Assembly: GCA_021790995.1 (NCBI GenBank)
Contig: JAJYFA010000008.1
Location: forward strand, 1 to 52,225
Length of the DNA: 52,225 nt
DNA from: Acidobacteriota bacterium
Lineage (GTDB): Bacteria > Acidobacteriota > Terriglobia > Terriglobales > Acidobacteriaceae
Direction: 5' to 3'
This document shows positions 7,685 through 51,696 of the stretch, piece by piece (the stretch's first letter is position 1; each line of letters starts with the position of its first letter). The position numbers and the translations under genes are program-made. Below the pieces are notes generated by a model that was given only the letters and a program-made list of their open reading frames with translations, ran no database searches and had not been told where the DNA came from.

Positions 7685-9001
7685 GTGCGCGTGAGTGTAG
7701 GGGAGCAGTTGCGGGAGATGTGGCGGCAGGCGCGTGGCGGCGGACGATACGGTCGCGGCGCGGATACGCGGGCCGCGGAGCTGGCGGCGGCAACCGAGGC
7801 GGAGCGCAAGACGCTGGCTATGCCCGCGATCCTGAGTCCTGTGCAGTTTCCGGGGCGGCACCTGCCGAAGCCGACGCCGATGAATCTGCGGCGGTTTGCG
7901 GAGACGCCCGTGGTGCGGCGCGCGATCAACGTGATCAAAGATCGCATTGCGGCGATGGACTGGCAGGTGCGGGTGCGGCGTGGTGTGGAGCCTGGGGATG
8001 TGTCGTTTCAGGCGCGGAAATTGCGGGCGTTGCGGCGGGTGCTTGAGGAGCCGAATCCGACGGACAGCTTCAGGACATTGATTGAGCAGGCGATTGAGGA
8101 TGCGTTGACGGGCGGCTATGGAGCAATCGAGATGGAGCCGACGGGCGATCCGGAACGGCCAGCGATGTTGTGGTCCGTGGATGGAGCTTCGATCCGCATC
8201 AACGCCAAGTGGGACGGGCAGGAAGACATGCCGCGTTACGCGCAGGCAGTGGCGGGGCAACTTGAGTCGAGCGCGGTGGAACTGCTCGACAGGCAGTTGA
8301 TGTACATCCGTATGAACCCGCGGAGTTTTACGCCATTCGGACTGGGACCGCTGGAGGTAGCGTTCGAGACGGTGAATCAGTTTTTGAGTGCGCACCGCTT
8401 TGCGGGGAAGTTGGCGGCAAACTCGGTGGCGCAGTATGCGCTGTGGCTGAACGAGGCCACGCCAGCGCAGCACGACCGGCTGATCCGCTGGTGGCAGGAC
8501 GAGATCGAGGGCACGGGAAGGGTGCCGCTGCTCTCGACCGAGCAGAAGCCGGAGGTGCTGCGATTTGCGCAGGGTACAGACGCGGATCTGCGACTGGCAT
8601 GGCAGGAGTTCCTGATCCGGATGGTGGCGAACGCTTTTGGATTGCCGCCGTTGATGCTGGGGCTCGAGGCCGATGTGAATCAATCGACGGCCTCGGAGAT
8701 GGCGGATGAGGCGTTCCGAGGAGCGATTTCTCCGCTGGCGCTGCTGCTGGCGCAGCACATTACGCGGGACCTGTTTGGGAAGTGTGTCGGCTGGCGCGAG
8801 TTCGAGTTTGTCTTCAACGAGCTGAGCGCACGGGACGAGATGACGGAGTTGCAGGTGCAGGTGCAACTGCTTCAGGCTGGCGTACTGACGGTAAACGAGG
8901 TTCGGGCCATGCGGGGGCTGGCGCCGATGGAGGCAGGGATCGGGGAGCAGGGGTCAGTTGAACACCAGGGCAAACCCAGATTCCTGAAACCTTGTCCCTG
9001 A
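7685..9001 (+). CDS. Phage portal protein
   Basis: 438 aa with portal-like N-half (VVRRAINVIKDRIAAMDWQV..., LIEQAIEDALTGGYGAIEM) and 'LIRMVANAFGLPPLMLGLEADVNQSTASEMADEAFR' typical of HK97-type portals. Confidence 0.82.
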   Translation: MRVSVGEQLREMWRQARGGGRYGRGADTRAAELAAATEAERKTLAMPAILSPVQFPGRHLPKPTPMNLRRFAETPVVRRAINVIKDRIAAMDWQVRVRRGVEPGDVSFQARKLRALRRVLEEPNPTDSFRTLIEQAIEDALTGGYGAIEMEPTGDPERPAMLWSVDGASIRINAKWDGQEDMPRYAQAVAGQLESSAVELLDRQLMYIRMNPRSFTPFGLGPLEVAFETVNQFLSAHRFAGKLAANSVAQYALWLNEATPAQHDRLIRWWQDEIEGTGRVPLLSTEQKPEVLRFAQGTDADLRLAWQEFLIRMVANAFGLPPLMLGLEADVNQSTASEMADEAFRGAISPLALLLAQHITRDLFGKCVGWREFEFVFNELSARDEMTELQVQVQLLQAGVLTVNEVRAMRGLAPMEAGIGEQGSVEHQGKPRFLKPCP

Positions 9002-9007
9002 ACCCTA
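8932..9007. repeat. Degenerate heptad repeat, inverted arms, inside portal C-terminus
   Basis: Left GCAGGGA TCGGGGA GCAGGGG TCAGTTG; right CCTGAAA CCTTGTC CCTGAAC CCTAG. Confidence 0.65.
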
Positions 9008-9020
9008 GCGAACGGAGCGA

Positions 9021-9530
9021 ATGACGATGCGACTGGAAGCGATGGCGGTGGAGATTCCTCATGTGGACAAGCACCCGAACCGGGTGCCGTTCGAGGGCGT
9101 GTTGACGGTGGTGAATGCGGCCAGCGACAGGGCTCCGGCGGGAGCGCGAGGGCATCGCGTGATGCTGACGAAGGATGCGACGGAGAAGGGGCTGGCGTCG
9201 CTGGTAGGCATGGCGGTGGATTACCGGCCCGGATGGGACGGGCACGACGCGCGGCGCAAGATCGGCCTGCTGACCGAGGCGAATGTCATTGGGCAGCGTC
9301 TGATGGTGCGCGGGTATCTCTACGCGCGCGACTTTCCCGAGGTGGCGGAGGCGATTGCGGCCCAGGCGCCGGGGGCAATGGGGATGAGCTACGAGCTGGC
9401 AGATGCGCACGTGGAAGACATGCGGGCCGAAGTGTGGAAGCTGACGCGCGTGACTTTTACCGGAGCGGCGATTTTGCTGCGCGACAAGGCAGCTTATCGG
9501 GCGACTAGTTTTCGGATGCGGCGGAGTTAG
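9021..9530 (+). CDS. Prohead protease-like / phage morphogenesis protein
   Basis: 169 aa directly between portal and capsid-type genes; 'HVDKHPNRVPFEGVLTVVN...TEKGLASLVGMAVDY' pattern; assignment leans on gene order. Confidence 0.5.
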   Translation: MTMRLEAMAVEIPHVDKHPNRVPFEGVLTVVNAASDRAPAGARGHRVMLTKDATEKGLASLVGMAVDYRPGWDGHDARRKIGLLTEANVIGQRLMVRGYLYARDFPEVAEAIAAQAPGAMGMSYELADAHVEDMRAEVWKLTRVTFTGAAILLRDKAAYRATSFRMRRS

Positions 9531-9561
9531 AAAAGGCAGCAAGTCGGCGAGTTAGCCAATG

Positions 9562-9588
9562 AGGCTCCGAGCGGCGGGGCCTTTTTTA
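9562..9588 (+). terminator. Rho-independent terminator-like hairpin
   Basis: GGCTCC gagcggc GGGGCC TTTTTT downstream of protease-like gene. Confidence 0.55.
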
Positions 9589-9675
9589 TTGACTGGAAAA
9601 GCAGGAAAGAAGCGGGCAAGAAGCGCGGTTTGCAGAGTCTCTTTGCAAACGGGTTTGCCGGGGCGCCAAGGAGCC

Positions 9676-9712
9676 GATCACTTACCGCTTACCACTTATC
9701 ACTGAAGAAAGG
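9676..9712. repeat. Degenerate heptad repeat
   Basis: CTTACCG CTTACCA CTTATCA CTGAAGA, period 7. Confidence 0.6.
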
Positions 9713-9718
9713 AAGGAC

Positions 9719-10117
9719 ATGGAAAACGAGGAGAAGAGCGTTGTCGAGCGGCTGGAAGCCGCGACTGCCTTGCTTGAAGGTGCGCTGAACTGGCTGGAAG
9801 AACGCCAAGGCGCGCTGTCGGGCGAGGTGGAGAGAATCTCGGCCACGGTGGAGCAGAGCCGGCGGGAGGCTGAACTGGTCGAGAAGCTGGCAGCGGCCGA
9901 GCAGGAGTTGGCCGAGTTGAAAGCCGCATCGGCGCAGAATGTGCTGACCCCTATACGCCGGACTATGCCCGCGGCAACGGCGGAGATGCTGGCCAAGCAC
10001 GGCATCGGCGAAGGGCCGGTGGATGTGCGCGCGCTGGATGCGGCGCTCGCGGGGCTAAGCCTGGAACAGCGCATCGCGGTGAAGACGCAACTGCAGCGGG
10101 CAGGCGCGATTTCCTAA
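9719..10117 (+). CDS. Coiled-coil phage scaffold-like / hypothetical protein
   Basis: 132 aa, Glu-rich coiled-coil (EEKSVVERLEAATALLEGALNWLEERQ...), positioned immediately before capsid gene. Confidence 0.5.
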   Translation: MENEEKSVVERLEAATALLEGALNWLEERQGALSGEVERISATVEQSRREAELVEKLAAAEQELAELKAASAQNVLTPIRRTMPAATAEMLAKHGIGEGPVDVRALDAALAGLSLEQRIAVKTQLQRAGAIS

Positions 10118-10119
10118 AG

Positions 10120-10212
10120 ACAGGGATCAGGTTTCAGGGGTCATGGATCAGATTTGTCAATCTGTTCCTTGCTACGGGCCACTGAACCCTGACGACTGAA
10201 ACCTGAAACCTT
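10120..10212. repeat. Degenerate heptad inverted-repeat element
   Basis: Left ACAGGGA TCAGGTT TCAGGGG TCATGGA TCAGATT; right ACTGAAC CCTGACG ACTGAAA CCTGAAA CC. Confidence 0.8.
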
Positions 10213-10247
10213 TTAACCACGGCCCCATGGAGGGGGCGGAGAGAGCT

Positions 10248-11228
10248 ATGAACGCAACCTTTGCAGATATTCACGCGGCAGCGGATTTCATTGGGCCGGG
10301 TGCAGTTGAAGTCCCGTTATATCAGACGGAGATCTTCGATATTTGCCGCCGGTCGAGCCCCTTCGGGCAACGCATCAAGCAGGTACCGGCGACGGGCCAT
10401 CCCTCACGGTTCTTCGAGGAGACGGCGATTCCCAATCCGGGCACGGCCGGCTTTGTGAATCCGCGTAGCATTTCGCCCACGGTGGTCAGTCCGACGCGCA
10501 TCGAGCTGAGCGTACCGCTGAAAGCGATTGTGGCGCAGATCAACTACAACCTGTTCGACATCGAGCTGGGGGACCAGCAGAAGCAGTTCGCCTACTTGCA
10601 GGCCAAGGATCTGGTGGATACGGTGAGCGGCGTGATGGTGACGCACGACGTGGCGCTGTGGCAGGGCAATGACACCAGCCTGAGCTCGCCCACGACTACT
10701 CAATACATGGGATGTGCGGCGCAGATCGCGGGCAGCGGTAACACGGTGACTGTAGCCACATCGATGAAGATCGTGGACACGATCAAGACCACGATCGCGC
10801 AAATGGTGGCCAACACAAATTATCGTGTGCGGCCGACGGCCATCTATGCCAACCCGGTGCTGCTCGATCTGATCGACCAGGAGATGAAGAGCGACTACAA
10901 CGTGGTGCTGAATACCGACCAGATCACAGGCGGATTCCGCGTGAAGATGTTGTCGACGCAGGCAGGCGATCTGCCGCTGATTCCTGACTGGAGCCTGCCG
11001 TATACGCCTGGAAGCGGTTCCGGTTCCAGTTACGTGCCGGGCAGCTATCCGGCCTACATCGTCACCGAGGATTTGATCGAGTATCACTGGCTCGGCGATC
11101 CGGCTCCGCGCATCTTCCAGCTCGGTCTGCCGAATTCGATGACTTACCAGTACGTTGCGGTCAAGTTCGGAGCGCCGGTGGTCAAAGGCGCGAACTTTGC
11201 GCACTACCAGGTGATTGTGGAGCGGTAG
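10248..11228 (+). CDS. Phage major capsid protein-like
   Basis: MNATFADIHAAADFIGPGAVEVPLYQTEIFDICRRSSPFGQRI...; capsid-like length, composition and gene order; ATG 10248 preceded by GGAGAGAG so preferred over 10227. Confidence 0.7.
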   Translation: MNATFADIHAAADFIGPGAVEVPLYQTEIFDICRRSSPFGQRIKQVPATGHPSRFFEETAIPNPGTAGFVNPRSISPTVVSPTRIELSVPLKAIVAQINYNLFDIELGDQQKQFAYLQAKDLVDTVSGVMVTHDVALWQGNDTSLSSPTTTQYMGCAAQIAGSGNTVTVATSMKIVDTIKTTIAQMVANTNYRVRPTAIYANPVLLDLIDQEMKSDYNVVLNTDQITGGFRVKMLSTQAGDLPLIPDWSLPYTPGSGSGSSYVPGSYPAYIVTEDLIEYHWLGDPAPRIFQLGLPNSMTYQYVAVKFGAPVVKGANFAHYQVIVER

Positions 11229-11233
11229 GAAAG

Positions 11234-11352
11234 ACAGGGGTCAGGTTTCAGGAATCAGCGGTCAGGGGCGGACCAGCCAGCAACTCGCCTGAACGGCTTT
11301 CGACACCCGAACTCTGAGATCTGAACCCTGAACCCTGACACCTGAACTCTGA
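11234..11352. repeat. Degenerate heptad inverted-repeat element
   Basis: Left ACAGGGG TCAGGTT TCAGGAA TCAGCGG TCAGGGG; right CACCCGA ACTCTGA GATCTGA ACCCTGA ACCCTGA CACCTGA ACTCTGA. Confidence 0.85.
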
Positions 11353-11362
11353 GGAGATCTTT

Positions 11363-11986
11363 ATGGCTTATCTTGAGCCAGCGGATTACATGAATTACGG
11401 ATTGCCTGCCGGGACCACGGCGGACTGGATTACGGCCGCTACGGCATTGATCAACAGCTACTGCCGGCGGCCGGACCTGAATGTGGTGCAGTACGTGGAG
11501 CGCCTGCGAGTGGTTGCGGGAGCGCATACGGTGGTGCTGAGCTATCTGCCGCTAGCTGTCCTGGCGCCGGCTACATCGCCGCTCGTTGGCATCCAGGGCC
11601 GCTACACATGGCCGCGGCGCGGTGCTGTTTTGCCCGAGCCGGTGAACGAGATGGTGTGGGCGTTTGCGCTGCCAGGACAGTGGACTGCGATCGATCCGAC
11701 GCTGGTGGACTTCGATCCAGCGACCGGCGAACTGACGCTGCCGGTGAATGTGTTGTGGCTGCCTTACAACGAAGTCCAGGTCACGTATACGGCCGGTCTG
11801 ACGACGATCGGCGACGACGTGAAGTCGGCGTGCGCGCAGATCGTGCGCAACGCTCAGGCTACGCCAGCGCTGAACGCCAGCATGACGCGGGTCGACACGA
11901 TGTGGGTGAAGTATTTCTCAAGTTCGTTGATCGACGAGACTGTGCAGGAGTGGCTGAAGCCGTACGTGGCAAGCCGGCTGGGATAA
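11363..11986 (+). CDS. Phage head-tail connector-like protein (gp6-like)
   Basis: 'YLEPADYMNYGLPAGTTADWITAATALINSYCRRP...' N-terminus as in head-tail adaptors; follows capsid. Confidence 0.6.
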   Translation: MAYLEPADYMNYGLPAGTTADWITAATALINSYCRRPDLNVVQYVERLRVVAGAHTVVLSYLPLAVLAPATSPLVGIQGRYTWPRRGAVLPEPVNEMVWAFALPGQWTAIDPTLVDFDPATGELTLPVNVLWLPYNEVQVTYTAGLTTIGDDVKSACAQIVRNAQATPALNASMTRVDTMWVKYFSSSLIDETVQEWLKPYVASRLG

Positions 11987-11991
11987 AGGCA

Positions 11992-12072
11992 GGTTTCAGG
12001 GATTAGGGATCAGGACGCATGGTGACGAGATTACTTTCGTCTGAACCCAGCCACCTGAAGCCTGTTCACTGG
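11992..12072. repeat. Degenerate heptad inverted-repeat element
   Basis: Left GCAGGTT TCAGGGA TTAGGGA TCAGGAC; right CTGAACC CAGCCAC CTGAAGC CTGTTCA CTGG. Confidence 0.75.
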
Positions 12073-12088
12073 AAAATGGGAGCGAGTT

Positions 12089-12523
12089 ATGAGCGATACG
12101 GAGCCGCGCCGCCCGAGAGGTGCGCCGCAGATGCTGGCCGACGCCCTGCTGCGCAACGCGGCGGGTACCACGGCGTTCTTTCGTGTGACCGGCGTGAGCA
12201 CAGACACCGTCACATCGGAGGTAGGGCTGGTGGCCACGACCTTTGCGGAGGTTCCAGTGAGTCCGGCGGTGATGCGACGAGTGGAGCCTGGCTGGAAGGA
12301 AGGCGGGCAGACGAAGTGGGAGTTGCTGGTATCAGCCACTGGCGTCGAGCAGCAGGTGAACGCGCTGAATCTCGCGTCGGCGCAGTCGCTGTTTGCCATG
12401 GCGCTGGCGGTGACGGTGGGCGAGCAAGACTACCTGATCGAATCCATCTCCTCGAATGAGGCATTTGGACAGGTGTACATTTACCGGCTGCTGTTGCGCG
12501 AGGCGCGGCAGCAAGGGGTGTGA
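12089..12523 (+). CDS. Hypothetical phage-module protein
   Basis: 144 aa intact ORF in the head/tail cluster. Confidence 0.5.
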   Translation: MSDTEPRRPRGAPQMLADALLRNAAGTTAFFRVTGVSTDTVTSEVGLVATTFAEVPVSPAVMRRVEPGWKEGGQTKWELLVSATGVEQQVNALNLASAQSLFAMALAVTVGEQDYLIESISSNEAFGQVYIYRLLLREARQQGV

Positions 12524-12525
12524 GA

Positions 12526-12672
12526 GCAGGTTTTAGAGGTCAGGTTTCAGGGTCGAGCGGCCCAATCGACTCGTGGTCAAGATTGCGCGGGCCGGAAAGG
12601 TGGACGGGAAGCAAGGAGCAGAGGTTGGGAGGCGTTTTTCTGGTCCCTGGCCCTGCCCCCTGTTCCCTGTTG
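12526..12672. repeat. Degenerate heptad inverted-repeat element
   Basis: Left GCAGGTT TTAGAGG TCAGGTT TCAGGGT; right CTGGTCC CTGGCCC TGCCCC CTGTTCC CTG. Confidence 0.7.
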
Positions 12673-12674
12673 TT

Positions 12675-13160
12675 ATGCAGAACGCAAAAGACTCGTTTTA
12701 TATGGCGCTGCGCACGCGCCTGTCAGCCATCAACCCGGAGCGGACGATTCTGCTGCGTGGCGCAGTGCGGCCGGGAATTCTGGTGGAAGAAGCCGAAGCG
12801 CCCTACGCGCAACTTCCCGACGATGTGTTCATTTTGCGCTGGATGGGGCTGGCGACGGACGTGGAACTTGCCGCAACGATGGCGGCCGAACAGTGCGAGA
12901 TCGTCTACCAGACCTGCGGAACGCAGGGCTTTGGCGGGCTGGATCGCGGGCGCGCGCTCAGCCAGATGGATAAAGAGCTGCTGGGGATGCTGCAGCCGTT
13001 CTCGACGCCGAAGCTCAATTACACGGCGACTCCGCCGGCTGCTATGCTGACGCAGATCTTCTGGGACGAGCCGGTTTTTGGGCCGGTGACGATCAACCGT
13101 GACCGGCTGAGCCGTGCGGCGATTGTGACGATGTACAGCTACGAGGAGCCGGGGGAGTGA
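12675..13160 (+). CDS. Hypothetical phage-module protein (tail-terminator/neck position)
   Basis: MQNAKDSFYMALRTRLSAINPERTILLRGAVRPG...; start reassigned from ORF 12573; function from position only. Confidence 0.5.
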   Translation: MQNAKDSFYMALRTRLSAINPERTILLRGAVRPGILVEEAEAPYAQLPDDVFILRWMGLATDVELAATMAAEQCEIVYQTCGTQGFGGLDRGRALSQMDKELLGMLQPFSTPKLNYTATPPAAMLTQIFWDEPVFGPVTINRDRLSRAAIVTMYSYEEPGE

Positions 13161-13167
13161 AGGCTTC

Positions 13168-13276
13168 GCCAGGAATCAGGTTTCAGGGGTCAGATTTCAG
13201 TTTTCGGTATCACGCAGATGGTGGGAGATTGCCGATCACTGTTCACAGACCCCTGATGCCTGAAACCTGATCTCCA
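13168..13276. repeat. Degenerate heptad inverted-repeat element
   Basis: Left CCAGGAA TCAGGTT TCAGGGG TCAGATT TCAGTTT; right CCCCTGA TGCCTGA AACCTGA. Confidence 0.8.
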
Positions 13277-13285
13277 GAGGATTTC

Positions 13286-14395
13286 GTGATGACAGCAACA
13301 TGGTTTTCCGCTCCGGCGCCGGTGGCGCGGCGGGTGCGCGCCTATTTTGCGCCCGTGAATCGAGCCGCGCAGGCGCCGGTGCTCTTCGATCCATCGCAGC
13401 AGAGTGGGTTCAATCTGGATGCGCCGCCCGTGCCGTGGATCGACCTGGGATGGATCCAGAATTTCGTGCGCACGTCGCAGAGCCAGTCGGCGCCTCTGCT
13501 CACGGGCATTCCGGCCGCAGCTCTCGAACAGGTGCGGCAAACGCTCGAGGCGCAGGTGAGCCTGGAGTTTTTGAGCTGGACCAAGCTGACGATGGCGTTG
13601 GCGACCGGATCGCAACACATGAATGTGCTGGCCGTGGCAAGCGGCGCCACGGCAGCGGCCGACGGGGCGCAGGCTGTGGCTGCCGTCGTGCCGCAGAGCG
13701 GTTCGACCAGCACATCCATTTTGCTTGCGTCGTCGGACGCAGCCAAGTTCACTGCGGGCTCGATTGTTGCGGTGGACGTGGATTACACGGGTCAGACGGG
13801 CTATGTGGGCAGTCCGGTGGCAGGCGCGTATGTGAGGGGGGCGTTGACAGATGTAGATTACATCCGGCGCGTGACTTTCAATGTGGCGCTGGCGGCCGAA
13901 ACCAGCTCCAGCGGATTGACGCTGGCTTCTCCGCTGCCCGGAGGCGCGCCGGCCACAGGCGCAAAGGTGCAGCCCGTCGTGGGCTTTGTGGATCGCGAAG
14001 GCGGCAGCTTTTACCAGGAGTGGTCGGCGCTGTTTGTGATGCAGGGCAGCCAGGGAGAGCGAATCATCTTTCACTATCCGCGACTGCAACCGGCAATTAG
14101 CGGTGAAGAAACAGTGTTGCCGCTCGATGAACGGGCAGCCCCTTCGCGTCGCAATGCGGGCGGCAGGGCGACGGTGCATGTAGCTCAAATGTCACAGGCA
14201 GCAGGAAAGCGCGGCACTCAGGATGCGGTTCACCGCTCCGTCTCGGTACACCAAGCCTCGGGAAATTCCATCAATGGTCAGTCGCGCGTCCTGCTCAAGG
14301 CGCAGTTCATGGCGCTGCCGGTGACGGATCCTCTCGATGGGGAGCGGGTGGTTTGCTACAGGAGCTTTGTGCCTGCGCCGAATGCTCTGGTGTGA
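13286..14395 (+). CDS. Phage tail-tube/structural-like protein
   Basis: 369 aa intact ORF with AGAGGA upstream; Ala/Ser/Thr-rich beta-type sequence in tail position. Confidence 0.5.
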   Translation: MMTATWFSAPAPVARRVRAYFAPVNRAAQAPVLFDPSQQSGFNLDAPPVPWIDLGWIQNFVRTSQSQSAPLLTGIPAAALEQVRQTLEAQVSLEFLSWTKLTMALATGSQHMNVLAVASGATAAADGAQAVAAVVPQSGSTSTSILLASSDAAKFTAGSIVAVDVDYTGQTGYVGSPVAGAYVRGALTDVDYIRRVTFNVALAAETSSSGLTLASPLPGGAPATGAKVQPVVGFVDREGGSFYQEWSALFVMQGSQGERIIFHYPRLQPAISGEETVLPLDERAAPSRRNAGGRATVHVAQMSQAAGKRGTQDAVHRSVSVHQASGNSINGQSRVLLKAQFMALPVTDPLDGERVVCYRSFVPAPNALV

Positions 14396-14471
14396 GAAGG
14401 CAGGAATTGGAACTGCGGGACTACGAAAACATTCGACCACGAACCACTGACCATGATTCACGAGAAACACA

Positions 14472-16781
14472 ATGAAGATTACGATCCAAGGGCAGGACTA
14501 CACGGTGGCGCTCGATGCCGCGCGTCCGTTGACGATCGAGCGGAAGATGAATGAGCCTTCCGTCTGCCAGCTGTGGCTGAGCCTCGCCGCCAATGGGAGC
14601 CTCGCTGCGCCCGCGCGTTACCAGACGCTCGCGGTGACGGGCGACGACGGCACGCAATATTTCACGGGATACATCGCGGTGAGCCCGCTGCCGGAGTACG
14701 CGGGGATGGGCCTTGAAGGTCCGCGCTATCGCACGGCGATCCAGGCCGTGAGCGATGAGTGGCTGCTTGACCTGGCGCTGATGCCGCCGAACATCAGCCT
14801 TAGCAACCTGACCGCGGGCCAGGTGCTGGCTCTGCTCATCGAAGAGTCCGGCTCGGCGGCGCTCACTTCCACGGGGCTCACTCTCGGAACGCCGCTTGGC
14901 AGCTTTGCCCCCGAGCACGGCGCGAGCTGGAGCAGGAGCGCCGGTGAGGCTGCAAACATGGCGCGGGCCGCTTATCGCGCTCTCAACGGGACTGTTTTGC
15001 TCAACTCCGTGCAGTCGACGGTGCATCCGCTCAACGAGACCGATGGCAGCCTGAATCTTGCCGACCTTTCGCTTACCAGCGGCGTGAAGCGCGGGCTGGC
15101 GAACGATGTGACGGTGTGTGGCGAAGAAGAGCCTGTGGTGTATGTGACGGAGTATTTTCTGGGCGACGGCGCGACAACGTATTTTGTTTTGTCGGAGGAC
15201 CCGTACTTTCAACCCGCATCGAGGACGATTCTGATCTACGAGCTCTTCAACGGGCCGGGGATCGATCCTGTGCTTTGGTCGGTGAACGGCAAAAGTTACT
15301 TTAGCCTGGGCGCCAACGGCCTCACCGTCAACGGCGGCAACGGCTACGACGGGCAGACCACGCTTGCCTGGCTCAATCCCATCGAGATGGGCGGCACGCT
15401 GCTGCTTGAGTTGGTTGGCGTAACGCTTGCCGCGGGCAGCACGGGTATTCTGGGGGGATTTTTCAACGGATTGCCGGCTGCGGCCGATTGTGCCGTGGGC
15501 TTCCAGGCTATGGCGCAGCAAGGCACAGGGACCGTGACGCTGCAACCGATCATCATGGGCTCGGCAGCGGGTTCCACCTTTGCGGTGAATTCCGCCAATG
15601 AGTACACGCTGCGCATCCGCATTCATTGCCCCGAGAGCAATCGTGCCGGGGCGATGTTCTACTCCTACGGAGACAACGGACTGATCGGCGTGGGCGGCGC
15701 ATGGGTGATGGCTCCGGGCAAGATTCAGATGGAGGTGCAGGAGTTCGTCAACGGTGTTGGCGCTACGCCCGTCACGCTTTACGACGGCGGGATCGCGAAT
15801 CTTCCCGCGCCCTGCAATCTGATTCCGGTCAGCAGCATGGATATGACGGGCACGATCCGCGCCATTCATCTGACCGATATGGGATCGGGCTGGGTGGTGA
15901 GCACGCCGCCCAGCAGCGGCGCTTACACGCGGCGTATCGGCCCGACGGAGGTGGCAGGCGAATGCCACGTCGAGCGCACGGGCAGGCTCGTCTTCTACAC
16001 CGGATACACGCCGGTTGCAGGCGAGCAGATTGCGGTGAGTTACCGCACCATCCGGCGCGCCGTGGGACGCGCCGTGAACACCGCCAGCCAGCAGGCGCTC
16101 GAGCAGGCGGGATCGCCGTGGTCGGCGGCGTGGATTGGATCAGTGACCAGGCCGCCGGCGCGCAGTTCGGAAGATTGCCGTAATGCGGCGCAGGTGATGG
16201 CGCAGGCCGCGGCCAGCGTGAGCGCGCTGTGGAGCGGGACGTATAAGGGGAACCGCACGAGCTTTGCCAGCGACGTGTGGCCGGGCGATGCGCTGCTTCT
16301 CAACGCGCCTTCAACGAATCTCGACGCGCAGGTGGTGGTGCGCGCGGTCAAGTTGAGTTATGGCGCGAGCTCGCCCGATCTTGTGGACTACGAGATCGCT
16401 TTTGCAAACGACTGGGCCGACGACCTGGCGATCAAAACCAGCACGGTGGTGCCGGCCAAGACATGGCTTCCAGCTCCGGTAAATCCCACCTGTCTCGCGA
16501 ACCTGAACAATCTCTCCGTGACGGCGCTCAGCGGCAGTACGGTGACGGTGAATACGGGCGTTGTGCCACCTGCCGGCGGCGGCTTCGAGGTTCGCCTGCG
16601 CGACTACTCGTTCCAGGCCGGCGAAGATCCGACGCTGGTGCTGCGCGGTTCCGGGCAGACGCTTACGTTCACGCGGGTCTCGGCAAGCGACCGGTTTTAT
16701 ATACGGATGTACGACGGCTCCACGCCGCCGAATTACTCGGAGTTTTCCGCGGCGCTGTTTATCAATTTGCCGCTGGGATAA
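14472..16781 (+). CDS. Large phage tail/baseplate-like protein with internal jelly-roll-like and C-terminal FN3-like segments
   Basis: 769 aa; N-terminal 'MKITIQGQDYTVALDAARPLTIERKMNEPSVCQLWLSL' tail-type start; central 'ELFNGPGIDPVLWSVNGKSYFSLGANGLTVNGG' lectin-like; C-terminal FN3-like 'FYIRMYDGSTPPNYSEFS'. Confidence 0.55.
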   Translation: MKITIQGQDYTVALDAARPLTIERKMNEPSVCQLWLSLAANGSLAAPARYQTLAVTGDDGTQYFTGYIAVSPLPEYAGMGLEGPRYRTAIQAVSDEWLLDLALMPPNISLSNLTAGQVLALLIEESGSAALTSTGLTLGTPLGSFAPEHGASWSRSAGEAANMARAAYRALNGTVLLNSVQSTVHPLNETDGSLNLADLSLTSGVKRGLANDVTVCGEEEPVVYVTEYFLGDGATTYFVLSEDPYFQPASRTILIYELFNGPGIDPVLWSVNGKSYFSLGANGLTVNGGNGYDGQTTLAWLNPIEMGGTLLLELVGVTLAAGSTGILGGFFNGLPAAADCAVGFQAMAQQGTGTVTLQPIIMGSAAGSTFAVNSANEYTLRIRIHCPESNRAGAMFYSYGDNGLIGVGGAWVMAPGKIQMEVQEFVNGVGATPVTLYDGGIANLPAPCNLIPVSSMDMTGTIRAIHLTDMGSGWVVSTPPSSGAYTRRIGPTEVAGECHVERTGRLVFYTGYTPVAGEQIAVSYRTIRRAVGRAVNTASQQALEQAGSPWSAAWIGSVTRPPARSSEDCRNAAQVMAQAAASVSALWSGTYKGNRTSFASDVWPGDALLLNAPSTNLDAQVVVRAVKLSYGASSPDLVDYEIAFANDWADDLAIKTSTVVPAKTWLPAPVNPTCLANLNNLSVTALSGSTVTVNTGVVPPAGGGFEVRLRDYSFQAGEDPTLVLRGSGQTLTFTRVSASDRFYIRMYDGSTPPNYSEFSAALFINLPLG

Positions 16782-16844
16782 TGAGCGAGTCAGCAGATCA
16801 GCGAGCAAGAAGGTTGGCGGGTTGGCGAGCCTGCGGTTGAGTGA

Positions 16845-16872
16845 TTTCTGACTTCTGATCCCTGAACCCTGC
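16845..16872. repeat. Degenerate heptad repeat (right arm type)
   Basis: TTTCTGA CTTCTGA TCCCTGA ACCCTGC. Confidence 0.65.
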
Positions 16873-16878
16873 TCGGGA

Positions 16879-17112
16879 GTGTACATGCGCATGATGAATG
16901 AATTCGAAGCCCAGGTACTGAGCGATCTGAGTGTGTTGAAGTCGCAGATGAACAGTCTGATGGGCGACGGCAACGGCGGGCGCCTGGGCGATCTGGAGCG
17001 GCGCATGGACCGTCACGAGCAGAACTGGCAGCGCGCCAAAGGATTTCTGGCCGCGGTCAGCGTGGTGTTCGCCGTGCTCGAGGTTGCCGTGGAGGCGTGG
17101 CGCCGGCACTAA
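16879..17112 (+). CDS. Small coiled-coil plus single-TM protein (holin/XhlA-like position)
   Basis: 77 aa, 'LERRMDRHEQNWQRAKGFLAAVSVVFAVLEVAVEAW' coiled-coil then TM. Confidence 0.5.
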   Translation: MYMRMMNEFEAQVLSDLSVLKSQMNSLMGDGNGGRLGDLERRMDRHEQNWQRAKGFLAAVSVVFAVLEVAVEAWRRH

Positions 17113-17151
17113 ATGGCGTTCAAGCCAAGTGAATCTTCGTATAATCTCCCC

Positions 17152-17655
17152 ATGAGCCAACAACCGCTGGTCGGCGTTGTGATGGGCAGCAAGAGCGACT
17201 ACGAGACGCTCTCGCCAGCCGTGGAGATTCTGACCATCCTCGAAATTCCTCATGAAGCGCGCATTGTGAGTGCGCACCGCACGCCCGATTGGCTTTTTCG
17301 CTACGCGGAGACGGCGCGCGAGCGTGGCCTGTGCGCGATCATCGCCGGGGCCGGCGGCGCGGCGCATCTGCCCGGCATGCTGGCGGCCAAGACGCTGGTT
17401 CCCGTGCTTGGCGTGCCTGTTCCCGCAACCCAACTGAATGGCCTCGATTCGCTGCTTTCGATTGTGCAGATGCCCAAGGGCGTTCCCGTGGGTACATTCG
17501 CCATCGGCAAGGCGGGCGCGGCTAATGCCGCACTGTTTGCCGCGGAGATTCTGGCCGCGACCGACGCGACACTCTACGAGCGGTTGGCTGCGTGGCGCGC
17601 CGCGCGCACCCAGGAAGTACTCGACCAGACACTGGGCGAGGAACCGTCGAAGTGA
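17152..17655 (+). CDS. purE: 5-(carboxyamino)imidazole ribonucleotide mutase
   Basis: MSQQPLVGVVMGSKSDYETL...SAHRTPDWLFRYAETA..IIAGAGGAAHLPGMLAAKT; start reassigned to the conserved N-terminus. Confidence 0.95.
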   Translation: MSQQPLVGVVMGSKSDYETLSPAVEILTILEIPHEARIVSAHRTPDWLFRYAETARERGLCAIIAGAGGAAHLPGMLAAKTLVPVLGVPVPATQLNGLDSLLSIVQMPKGVPVGTFAIGKAGAANAALFAAEILAATDATLYERLAAWRAARTQEVLDQTLGEEPSK

Positions 17656-23090: not shown

Positions 23091-23103
23091 GGGAAGGCAG
23101 ATG

Positions 23104-23174
23104 GTAGCGTGTAGCCGGTAGCTTGCAGATCCTAGTTTCCGGCCAGGATCTGGAAGCTCCTGGCTACCGGCTTC
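23104..23174. repeat. Degenerate heptad inverted-repeat element, GTAG variant
   Basis: Left GTAGCGT GTAGCCG GTAGCTT GCAGATC CTAGTTT; right arm reverse complement GAAGCCG GTAGCCA GGAGCTT CCAGATC CTGGCCG. Confidence 0.8.
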
Positions 23175-23325
23175 AGTATTCTTGCCGCATTCTGCGGCGC
23201 GAGAGCTTTCAACCGGCGTTCACATTTGCGGCGTGGCTGGCCCGCTACGATGGAGAACAAAGTTATGCCTGACGGTGCACGCACAGTGCGCCGCATTGGC
23301 ATCGATCTCCATGCGGCGAGTCGAT

Positions 23326-38929: not shown

Positions 38930-39006
38930 GGCAGGGAATAGGGAATAGGGAATAGGGAATGACCGCTCGATGATCTTCTCCCAGCACTCTAATTTCTGTT
39001 TCCTGC
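38925..39006. repeat. Degenerate heptad inverted-repeat element, ATAGGGA variant
   Basis: Left ATAGGGA x3; right reverse complement GCAGGAA ACAGAAA TTAGAGT GCTGGGA. Confidence 0.75.
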
Positions 39007-51218: not shown

Positions 51219-51315
51219 AGCAACGATCAGGTCTCAGGGCGCGGGTTGCTGACAGGATCGGCCGGCGTTCGTACACTGACACCTGAAATCTTAAACCTGA
51301 CACCTGAAACCTGAC
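51209..51315. repeat. Degenerate heptad inverted-repeat element
   Basis: Left GCAGGGA GTAGAGC ... TCAGGTC TCAGGGC; right TGACACC TGAAATC TTAAACC TGACACC TGAAACC TGAC directly before ATG. Confidence 0.8.
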
Positions 51316-51696
51316 ATGACCTGCTACCTCTTCAAATCCGAGCCCGGCGTCTACTCCTTCGACGACCTCGTCCGCGAAGGCGAAACCATCTGGGATGGCG
51401 TGACTAATCCGGCCGCCGTCAAGCACCTGCGTGAGATGAAGCCGGGGGCGAAGTGGATCTTCTACCACACCGGCGACGAGCGCGCTGCTGTCGGCATGGG
51501 GACCGTTGTGAGCGTCGATGCGTCCGACCCCAAGGTGCCCATCGTTCGCGTGAAGGCTGGCAAGCGGCTGAAACACCCCAAGGCACTCCAAGTGATAAAG
51601 GCCGAGAAGGCATTCAAGGACTCGCCGCTCGTCAAGATCGGCCGCCTCTCCGTGGTCCCACTGACACTAGAACAGTGGGATTGGTTCGTGGTCTAA
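51316..51696 (+). CDS. EVE domain-containing protein
   Basis: MTCYLFKSEPGVYSFDDLVREGETIWDGVTNPAAVKHLREMKPGAKWIFYHTGDERAAVG. Confidence 0.93.
   Translation: MTCYLFKSEPGVYSFDDLVREGETIWDGVTNPAAVKHLREMKPGAKWIFYHTGDERAAVGMGTVVSVDASDPKVPIVRVKAGKRLKHPKALQVIKAEKAFKDSPLVKIGRLSVVPLTLEQWDWFVV

Follow-up and report, generated by a model that had tools for sequence, protein, structure and literature searches.

What writes, and what keeps matched, the imperfect hairpins that lie between the genes of a phage-like module in an Acidobacteriaceae genome, their arms built from degenerate seven-base units? The module (portal, putative protease, capsid, adaptor and tail; 7685-17655) lies within a stretch of 52,225 nucleotides, contig JAJYFA010000008.1 of a 4.15-Mb draft genome, which we call the window. 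The observation of period-7 fold-back repeats is confirmed, and the same architecture recurs across the genome, the family and other families of the phylum with changing letters. With slightly better than even confidence, we read the hairpins as DNA-level fold-back elements that arise by heptad slippage and arm-to-arm copying, are tolerated between cistrons and possibly provide a stem-loop behind the capsid gene.

Period-7 arms in the window and beyond

When the module gaps are pooled, their self-identity at lag 7 reaches 0.405, whereas shuffling gives 0.256±0.014 (z 10.9; 2000 shuffles, maximum 0.298); lags 14 and 21 are likewise elevated. This bears out the period-7 excess proposed in a first-pass annotation of this DNA. 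Its reading of 11304-11352 as heptads in strict phase also agrees with the sequence: in the right arm at 11301-11352, CTGA recurs every seven bases at 11314, 11321, 11328, 11335, 11342 and 11349, preceded by a single CCGA. The annotation had further ascribed one design to a list of module gaps. Paired arms are indeed clear in five of them (10118-10226, 11229-11362, 11987-12088, 12524-12674 and 13161-13285), but in some gaps just one arm is well formed (Table 1). The gap listed as 16845-16872 combines a good right arm with a weak left one; 9676-9712 does hold heptads, as a right arm only and with CTTACCR rather than TCAG; and the right arm in 12526-12672 consists of heptads in which CTG lacks the A. 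The stretch 8932-9007 carries a degenerate repeat but belongs for the most part to the portal open reading frame (ORF), which extends to 9001 and reads into that repeat. The variable C-terminal tail of the portal protein corresponds to translated heptad repeats with RDQG motifs, both here and in three related contigs (L035, L039 and L045); the repeat has therefore entered a reading frame. The repeats are present in the gaps of the module, as annotated, but they are not particular to it, since arrays also occur elsewhere in the window (23093-23130, 38933-38960 and 51276-51316) and genome-wide.

Table 1. Heptad arms and arrays located in the window
Feature	Position	Basis
Left heptad arm CAGGGAT CAGGTTT CAGGGGT CATGGAT CA, gap before capsid gene	10121..10150	lag-7 detector, sequence
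Right heptad arm, 3' end CTGAACC CTGACGA CTGAAAC CTGAAAC CT	10163..10211	detector; inverted-pair alignment score 17
Left heptad arm, gap after capsid gene	11233..11268	detector; TCAG heptads
Right heptad arm, seven in-phase heptads (CCGA + 6 CTGA)	11301..11352	detector, sequence; inverted-pair score 16
Left heptad arm flush with stop codon at 11986	11990..12014	detector
Right arm, degenerate CTG heptads	12041..12071	sequence
Left arm CAGGTTT TAGAGGT CAGGTTT CAGGG	12527..12553	sequence; alone below array threshold
Right arm CTGGTCC CTGGCCC TGCCCC CTGTTCC CTG	12640..12671	detector
Left arm CAGGAAT CAGGTTT CAGGGGT CAGATTT CAG	13170..13201	detector
Right arm CTGTTCA CAGACCC CTGATGC CTGAAAC CTGA	13240..13270	detector (both arms merged as 13170-13270)
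Good right arm, gap after tail gene; weak left arm at about 16788-16805	16842..16871	detector
Single heptad array with other letters, ACTTACC GCTTACC ACTTATC ACTGA	9677..9705	detector
Degenerate hairpin read as C-terminal tail of portal ORF (stop 8999-9001)	8950..9001	sequence, ORF
Paired arms, TAGCNNN-type units, convergent gap outside module	23093..23181	detector, arm alignment
TCAG heptads (51227) facing CTGA heptads (51276-51316), outside module	51227..51316	detector

Across the genome, the pattern TCAGN3TCAGN3TCAG has 110 matches, compared with 20 for the reversed pattern. Statistics for this genome are otherwise based on about 0.67 Mb, 0.22 Mb of which was picked without regard to hits. 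Arrays were called by a lag-7 detector that is blind to letters, and genes by a simple purpose-written caller. The detector finds 310 arrays in 997 gaps and 11 in shuffles. Lag 7 exceeds lags 5, 6, 8 and 9 (17 arrays at lag 5, 87 at lag 8 and 42 at lag 9), and array density is 1663/Mb in intergenic DNA against 77/Mb in coding DNA. In the spc/alpha ribosomal operons (rpsH to rplQ), nearly every gap holds a hairpin, some gene names in the ribosomal and ATP synthase loci having been assigned by eye from translations. For comparison, we used 80 contigs with a related capsid module (L031-L110; all from Acidobacteria, mostly Acidobacteriaceae) and two more distant genomes, G193 and G176. Within the family, 100 of the 151 genomes sampled contain the four-unit version of the TCAG heptad, as do 57 of the 80 genera. 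TCAG heptads also occur in other families of the phylum, where the layout is kept with different letters. The genomes G193 and G203 (family f30; 8.3-8.4 Mb) hold more than 1300 four-unit TCAG matches each, often as perfect tandem repeats.

A fixed layout with changing letters

The elements follow one order: stop codon, heptads, spacer, reverse-complement heptads and the ribosome site of the next gene. Of the 297 arrays examined for a partner within their gap, 176 have an inverted and 51 a direct one, compared with 4 when partners are shuffled. The opposing inverted arms described by the annotation are thus real, and 93% of cells in fixed columns are paired. The left arm begins a median of 3 bases after the stop codon in the genome itself, 4 in its relatives, 7.5 in G193 and 17.5 in G176, and the right arm stops 27-57 bases short of the next start. 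The arms are also polarised. In the family, CAG occurs 451 times in 5' arms (168 expected) and CTG 418 times in 3' arms (123 expected), and the left arm has more G than C in 38 of 40 hairpins from G193 and G176 and in 52 of 83 from the family. In family gaps outside the module, arrays are three to four times denser where the neighbouring genes are co-directional (1.56/kb) than where they are convergent (0.48/kb) or divergent (0.39/kb), and the samples from the genome itself agree. Per kb, however, arrays in G193 are as numerous in convergent gaps, and those in G176 as numerous in divergent ones, as in co-directional gaps; the bias is therefore not universal.

Two negative identifications made by the annotation hold. 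Judged by sequence, the hairpins are not standard intrinsic terminators, as in the window right arms run into ribosome sites (for example CTGAGGAGATCTTTATG from 11349) with no T-run there. Nor are they repetitive extragenic palindromic (REP) sequences of the GTAG type. REPs and bacterial interspersed mosaic elements resemble the hairpins in being dispersed imperfect palindromes between cistrons; they have no tandem-unit arms, carry a GTAG/GGAG or CGTC tag and are often linked to a Y1 transposase.

TCAG does not define these elements, contrary to what the annotation had assumed, as heptad letters vary both between gaps and between species. Across the 80 contigs, the unit in a given module gap is TCAGNNN for some species, whereas for others it is TAGCTNN, CAGTGNN, AGGGANN or CACGANN. 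In the rpsH-rplQ operon of the window's genome, adjacent gaps carry different units, and units likewise differ among the ribosomal-operon gaps of other genera, where some have eight bases, such as CTTGAAAC or CAAATTAC. Seven loci (L239, L242, L244, L062, L087, L089 and L093) have fold-back gaps with units of 8, 9 or 15 bases (CAAATTAC, CTTGAAAC, AGCGGGGCT and GCTGACCGCTTCATC), sharing the architecture of the heptad elements with a different period. Coarse unit-class labels are noisy, with the visibly homologous arrays of L086 and L098 labelled differently, and a label-free heptad similarity was therefore used in their place. This similarity is 4.52 between the arms of one gap, 3.84 for one gap compared across species whose capsids are at least 95% identical, 3.35 for unrelated gaps and 3.15 after column shuffling. 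Arms within a gap are thus more alike than the same gap is across sister species, indicating that both arms are rewritten together. A test with the noisy labels on the capsid tree finds no phylogenetic signal and points in the same direction.

The "constant four, variable three" pattern, which the annotation had taken as special, requires no selection, because column unevenness (0.0277) matches that of a simulation with duplication and uniform mutation (0.0258); uneven column conservation was accordingly rejected as a sign of selection. In arrays of 35 nt or longer, mean column conservation is 0.75, below the near-identity of units in short tandemly repeated repetitive (STRR) sequences and long simple sequence repeats (LSSRs), with which the arrays share tandem seven-base units enriched in non-coding DNA. 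Near-perfect arrays do exist, in G193/G203 and at 38933-38960 of the window, where four perfect tandem AGGGAAT units form an apparently young array.

A proposed DNA-level origin and its rivals

For the steps that would generate the DNA-level elements, we infer the following. Slippage of heptads during replication would lengthen the arms. Once a fold-back forms, intrastrand template switching or conversion could copy one arm onto the other, so that the arms match while their letters drift. The whole element would occasionally be copied to another gap, spreading a unit within the genome, and elements could serve as a stem-loop where a gap needs one anyway, as after the capsid gene. We propose that elements persist between cistrons because they fold out of the transcript, sparing the stop codon as well as the ribosome site that follows. 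Dispersed copies are found: a 103-bp hairpin in the rplR-rpsE gap has diverged copies (71-80% identity, full or near-full length including the spacer) in the rplF-rplR, rpsL-rpsG, rpmD-rplO and atpG-atpD gaps and beside a coaX-like gene. In G193, spacers recur at many loci, and L086 and L098 hold nested hairpins in which a different unit lies within the spacer of an older one. Between arms, variable columns match in a register-specific manner (0.538 observed versus 0.442), a modest signal whose per-column figure is inflated by the choice of the best offset, and permutation of heptad order gives +1.15±0.21; both are as arm-to-arm copying predicts.

A role in RNA at some gaps is a serious rival. 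Selected intercistronic stem-loops could stabilise the upstream mRNA, pause or partly terminate transcription, or be cut by RNase III, so that neighbouring genes are expressed at different levels, and we regard this as possible though well short of probable. Array-bearing gaps do fold better than shuffled controls, arrays occupy nearly every gap of the spc/alpha operons, and the co-directional excess in the family is in keeping with such a role, although G193 and G176 show no consistent preference of this kind. Behind the capsid gene, the gap shows strong folding both when heptads are present (median z -4.4) and when they are absent (-4.0), which suggests that a stem-loop is wanted there and that a heptad hairpin can supply one, seemingly in place of an ordinary stem-loop. 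The g6-g7 gap, however, folds only when it bears heptads and is unstructured when array-free (z 0.0). Among mismatched stem positions, G·U is not in excess over A·C (128:133), giving no sign of fine selection on RNA pairing, and the sense strand has no extra stability in array gaps, the bias of -4.4 kcal/mol being smaller than the -6.9 kcal/mol of array-free gaps. Both signs of selection on RNA were therefore rejected as absent, and their absence places arm matching at the DNA level.

Other accounts assign a function or a source to the letters themselves. In one, the right arm (CTGA, CTAG) would stop all three frames before the next gene and trap run-on or out-of-frame ribosomes, the left arm being a mere complement. 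Seven is not a multiple of three, TGA occurs 192 times in family right arms against 55, and 2.27 frames contain a stop there compared with 1.28±0.11 after column permutation. However, the enrichment of CTG equals that of TGA (418 versus 123; 272 versus 80), the effect is weak in G193 and G176 (1.12 versus 0.80), convergent gaps show the same CAG-in/CTG-out polarity and stops need no inverted arms, making this a very unlikely explanation. It is scarcely plausible that the hairpins are REP-like palindromes mobilised by a REP-associated Y1 transposase (RAYT). Such transposases are encoded in Acidobacteria (PMC3733652), and the dispersed copies comprise arms and spacer, but no GTAG/GGAG foot was seen and the arms are tandem heptads instead of a single 20-40 bp palindrome. 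Mobilisation of this kind was rejected because two array-rich genomes have no Y1_Tnp: G045, which leads the family sample in TCAG heptad matches (169) and is 98% complete, and G140, with 59. A protein or small RNA binding single-stranded heptads, as proposed for TAACTGA near start codons in Beggiatoaceae, would fit the shared CTGA and the position of arrays just 5' of genes. Nevertheless, unrelated units coexist in one genome, even in adjacent gaps of one operon, and differ between close relatives; we consider such a factor hardly credible, and a sequence-specific regulator reading TCAG was rejected because units differ from gap to gap within one operon.

Several points also weigh against DNA-level fold-back elements made by slippage and copying. 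Beyond the modest register signal, no copying step has been seen: neither an empty site nor an isolate pair one event apart was found, in a comparison that included no very close strains. Array gaps diverge no faster than array-free gaps in these genomes, and the claim is therefore limited to joint change of the arms, not unusually fast change. In addition, neutrality alone leaves unexplained the fixed position of the left arm after the stop codon, the CAG-in/CTG-out polarity and the co-directional excess. It is interesting to speculate that a DNA process of Acidobacteriota keeps writing paired inverted heptad arms, with letters free and both arms changing together, so that the architecture is inherited and the sequence is not. 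We think this unlikely; under such a process the polarity would point to an enzyme, for example one acting by CTG priming and fold-back copying.

Precedents and neighbouring elements

Among long simple repeats, units of seven bases are the most frequent class in many bacterial genomes (PMC4679880, PMC4692102). In Xanthomonas, GGGAATC/(GGGANTN)n arrays are 89-93% intergenic, lie a mean of 28 nt behind the upstream ORF, mostly in co-directional and seldom in divergent gaps, and form 70-75 inverted pairs in convergent orientation; the heptamers vary extensively between close species and have a Nostoc counterpart, GGGGA(C/T)T (PMC4692102). The hairpins described here share with them fixed and variable positions, intergenic placement near the upstream ORF, a co-directional excess, variation between species and inverted pairs, with convergent arrays in one gap whose G-rich strands face inward. 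The work on those heptamers emphasises G-quadruplexes and a single fixed G-rich unit per genome (PMC4692102), whereas many unit classes coexist per genome here (TCAGNNN, TAGCTNN, CAGTGNN, AGGGANN and others, AGGGANN being close to GGGANTN), most arrays are paired, units are rewritten between relatives and dispersed copies include the spacer. In the P6b stem of the Nostoc trnL group I intron, Class I TDNGATT or Class II NNTGAGT heptads form both sides (PMC4476775, PMC3488679). This is likewise a stem of degenerate heptads, in which two unrelated units serve the same structure, the region is repeatedly replaced and repeat number varies, but it occupies one intron locus, whereas the sites here are many intercistronic gaps with many units. 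Rfam gave no match in the window, for a group I intron or otherwise, or at the ribosomal-operon loci scanned. The TAACTGA direct repeats of Beggiatoaceae and cyanobacteria are also intergenic heptads with a CTGA end near start codons, but their unit is invariant and inverted in only 1 of 170 sets (PMC4679880), whereas NNN varies freely here.

The annotation's implication that paired inverted heptad arms were undescribed is refuted by the Xanthomonas pairs (PMC4692102) and the Nostoc stem (PMC4476775, PMC3488679), and these precedents weaken any claim to novelty. In the literature that we searched, no description of such repeats in Acidobacteria was found, and the hairpins represent, with greater variety, a type of repeat known from Xanthomonas and Nostoc. 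With many hairpins per lineage and structure uncoupled from sequence, they provide a natural data set in which comparison of close isolates makes testable both the matching of inverted arms and the long-standing question of what makes seven bases the preferred unit of simple repeats in bacteria. They also indicate that core operons, such as those for ribosomal proteins and ATP synthase, tolerate hairpins of 100-250 bases between cistrons, which bears on operon and terminator prediction in an abundant soil phylum.

Relatives of the module in 80 Acidobacteria contigs and the recurrence of purE downstream (41 of 81 sequences compared, many contigs stopping before that point) suggest that the module, from portal to tail, is a vertically inherited domesticated prophage or gene-transfer-agent-like module. 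Within it, the gap between the protease gene and g3 holds an ordinary terminator-like stem-loop with a T-run (GAGGCTCCGAGCGGCGGGGCCTTTTTT; 9566-9592), and a GGCCCCATGGAGGGGGC hairpin lies just 5' of the capsid start (10221-10239), its GGCCCC side discernible in the gaps of most relatives. In ribosomal operons, rplR is preceded by a conserved small hairpin (CCGAACGGAGNNGCAGGGCGNCTCCGCTNNTAGGAAGGA) in L123 (18960-19115, rplF-rplR gap) and in L220, L221, L223, L225, L227, L229, L230 and L233. Its stem bases vary on both sides across several genera, it has no Rfam match, and it is a candidate for a leader element of ribosomal-protein genes. Across genera, another conserved element, GCGAGTCGG...CCGGCGTTNAGCGAGGA, lies 5' of rplO (L123, 17618-17784; L220-L233).

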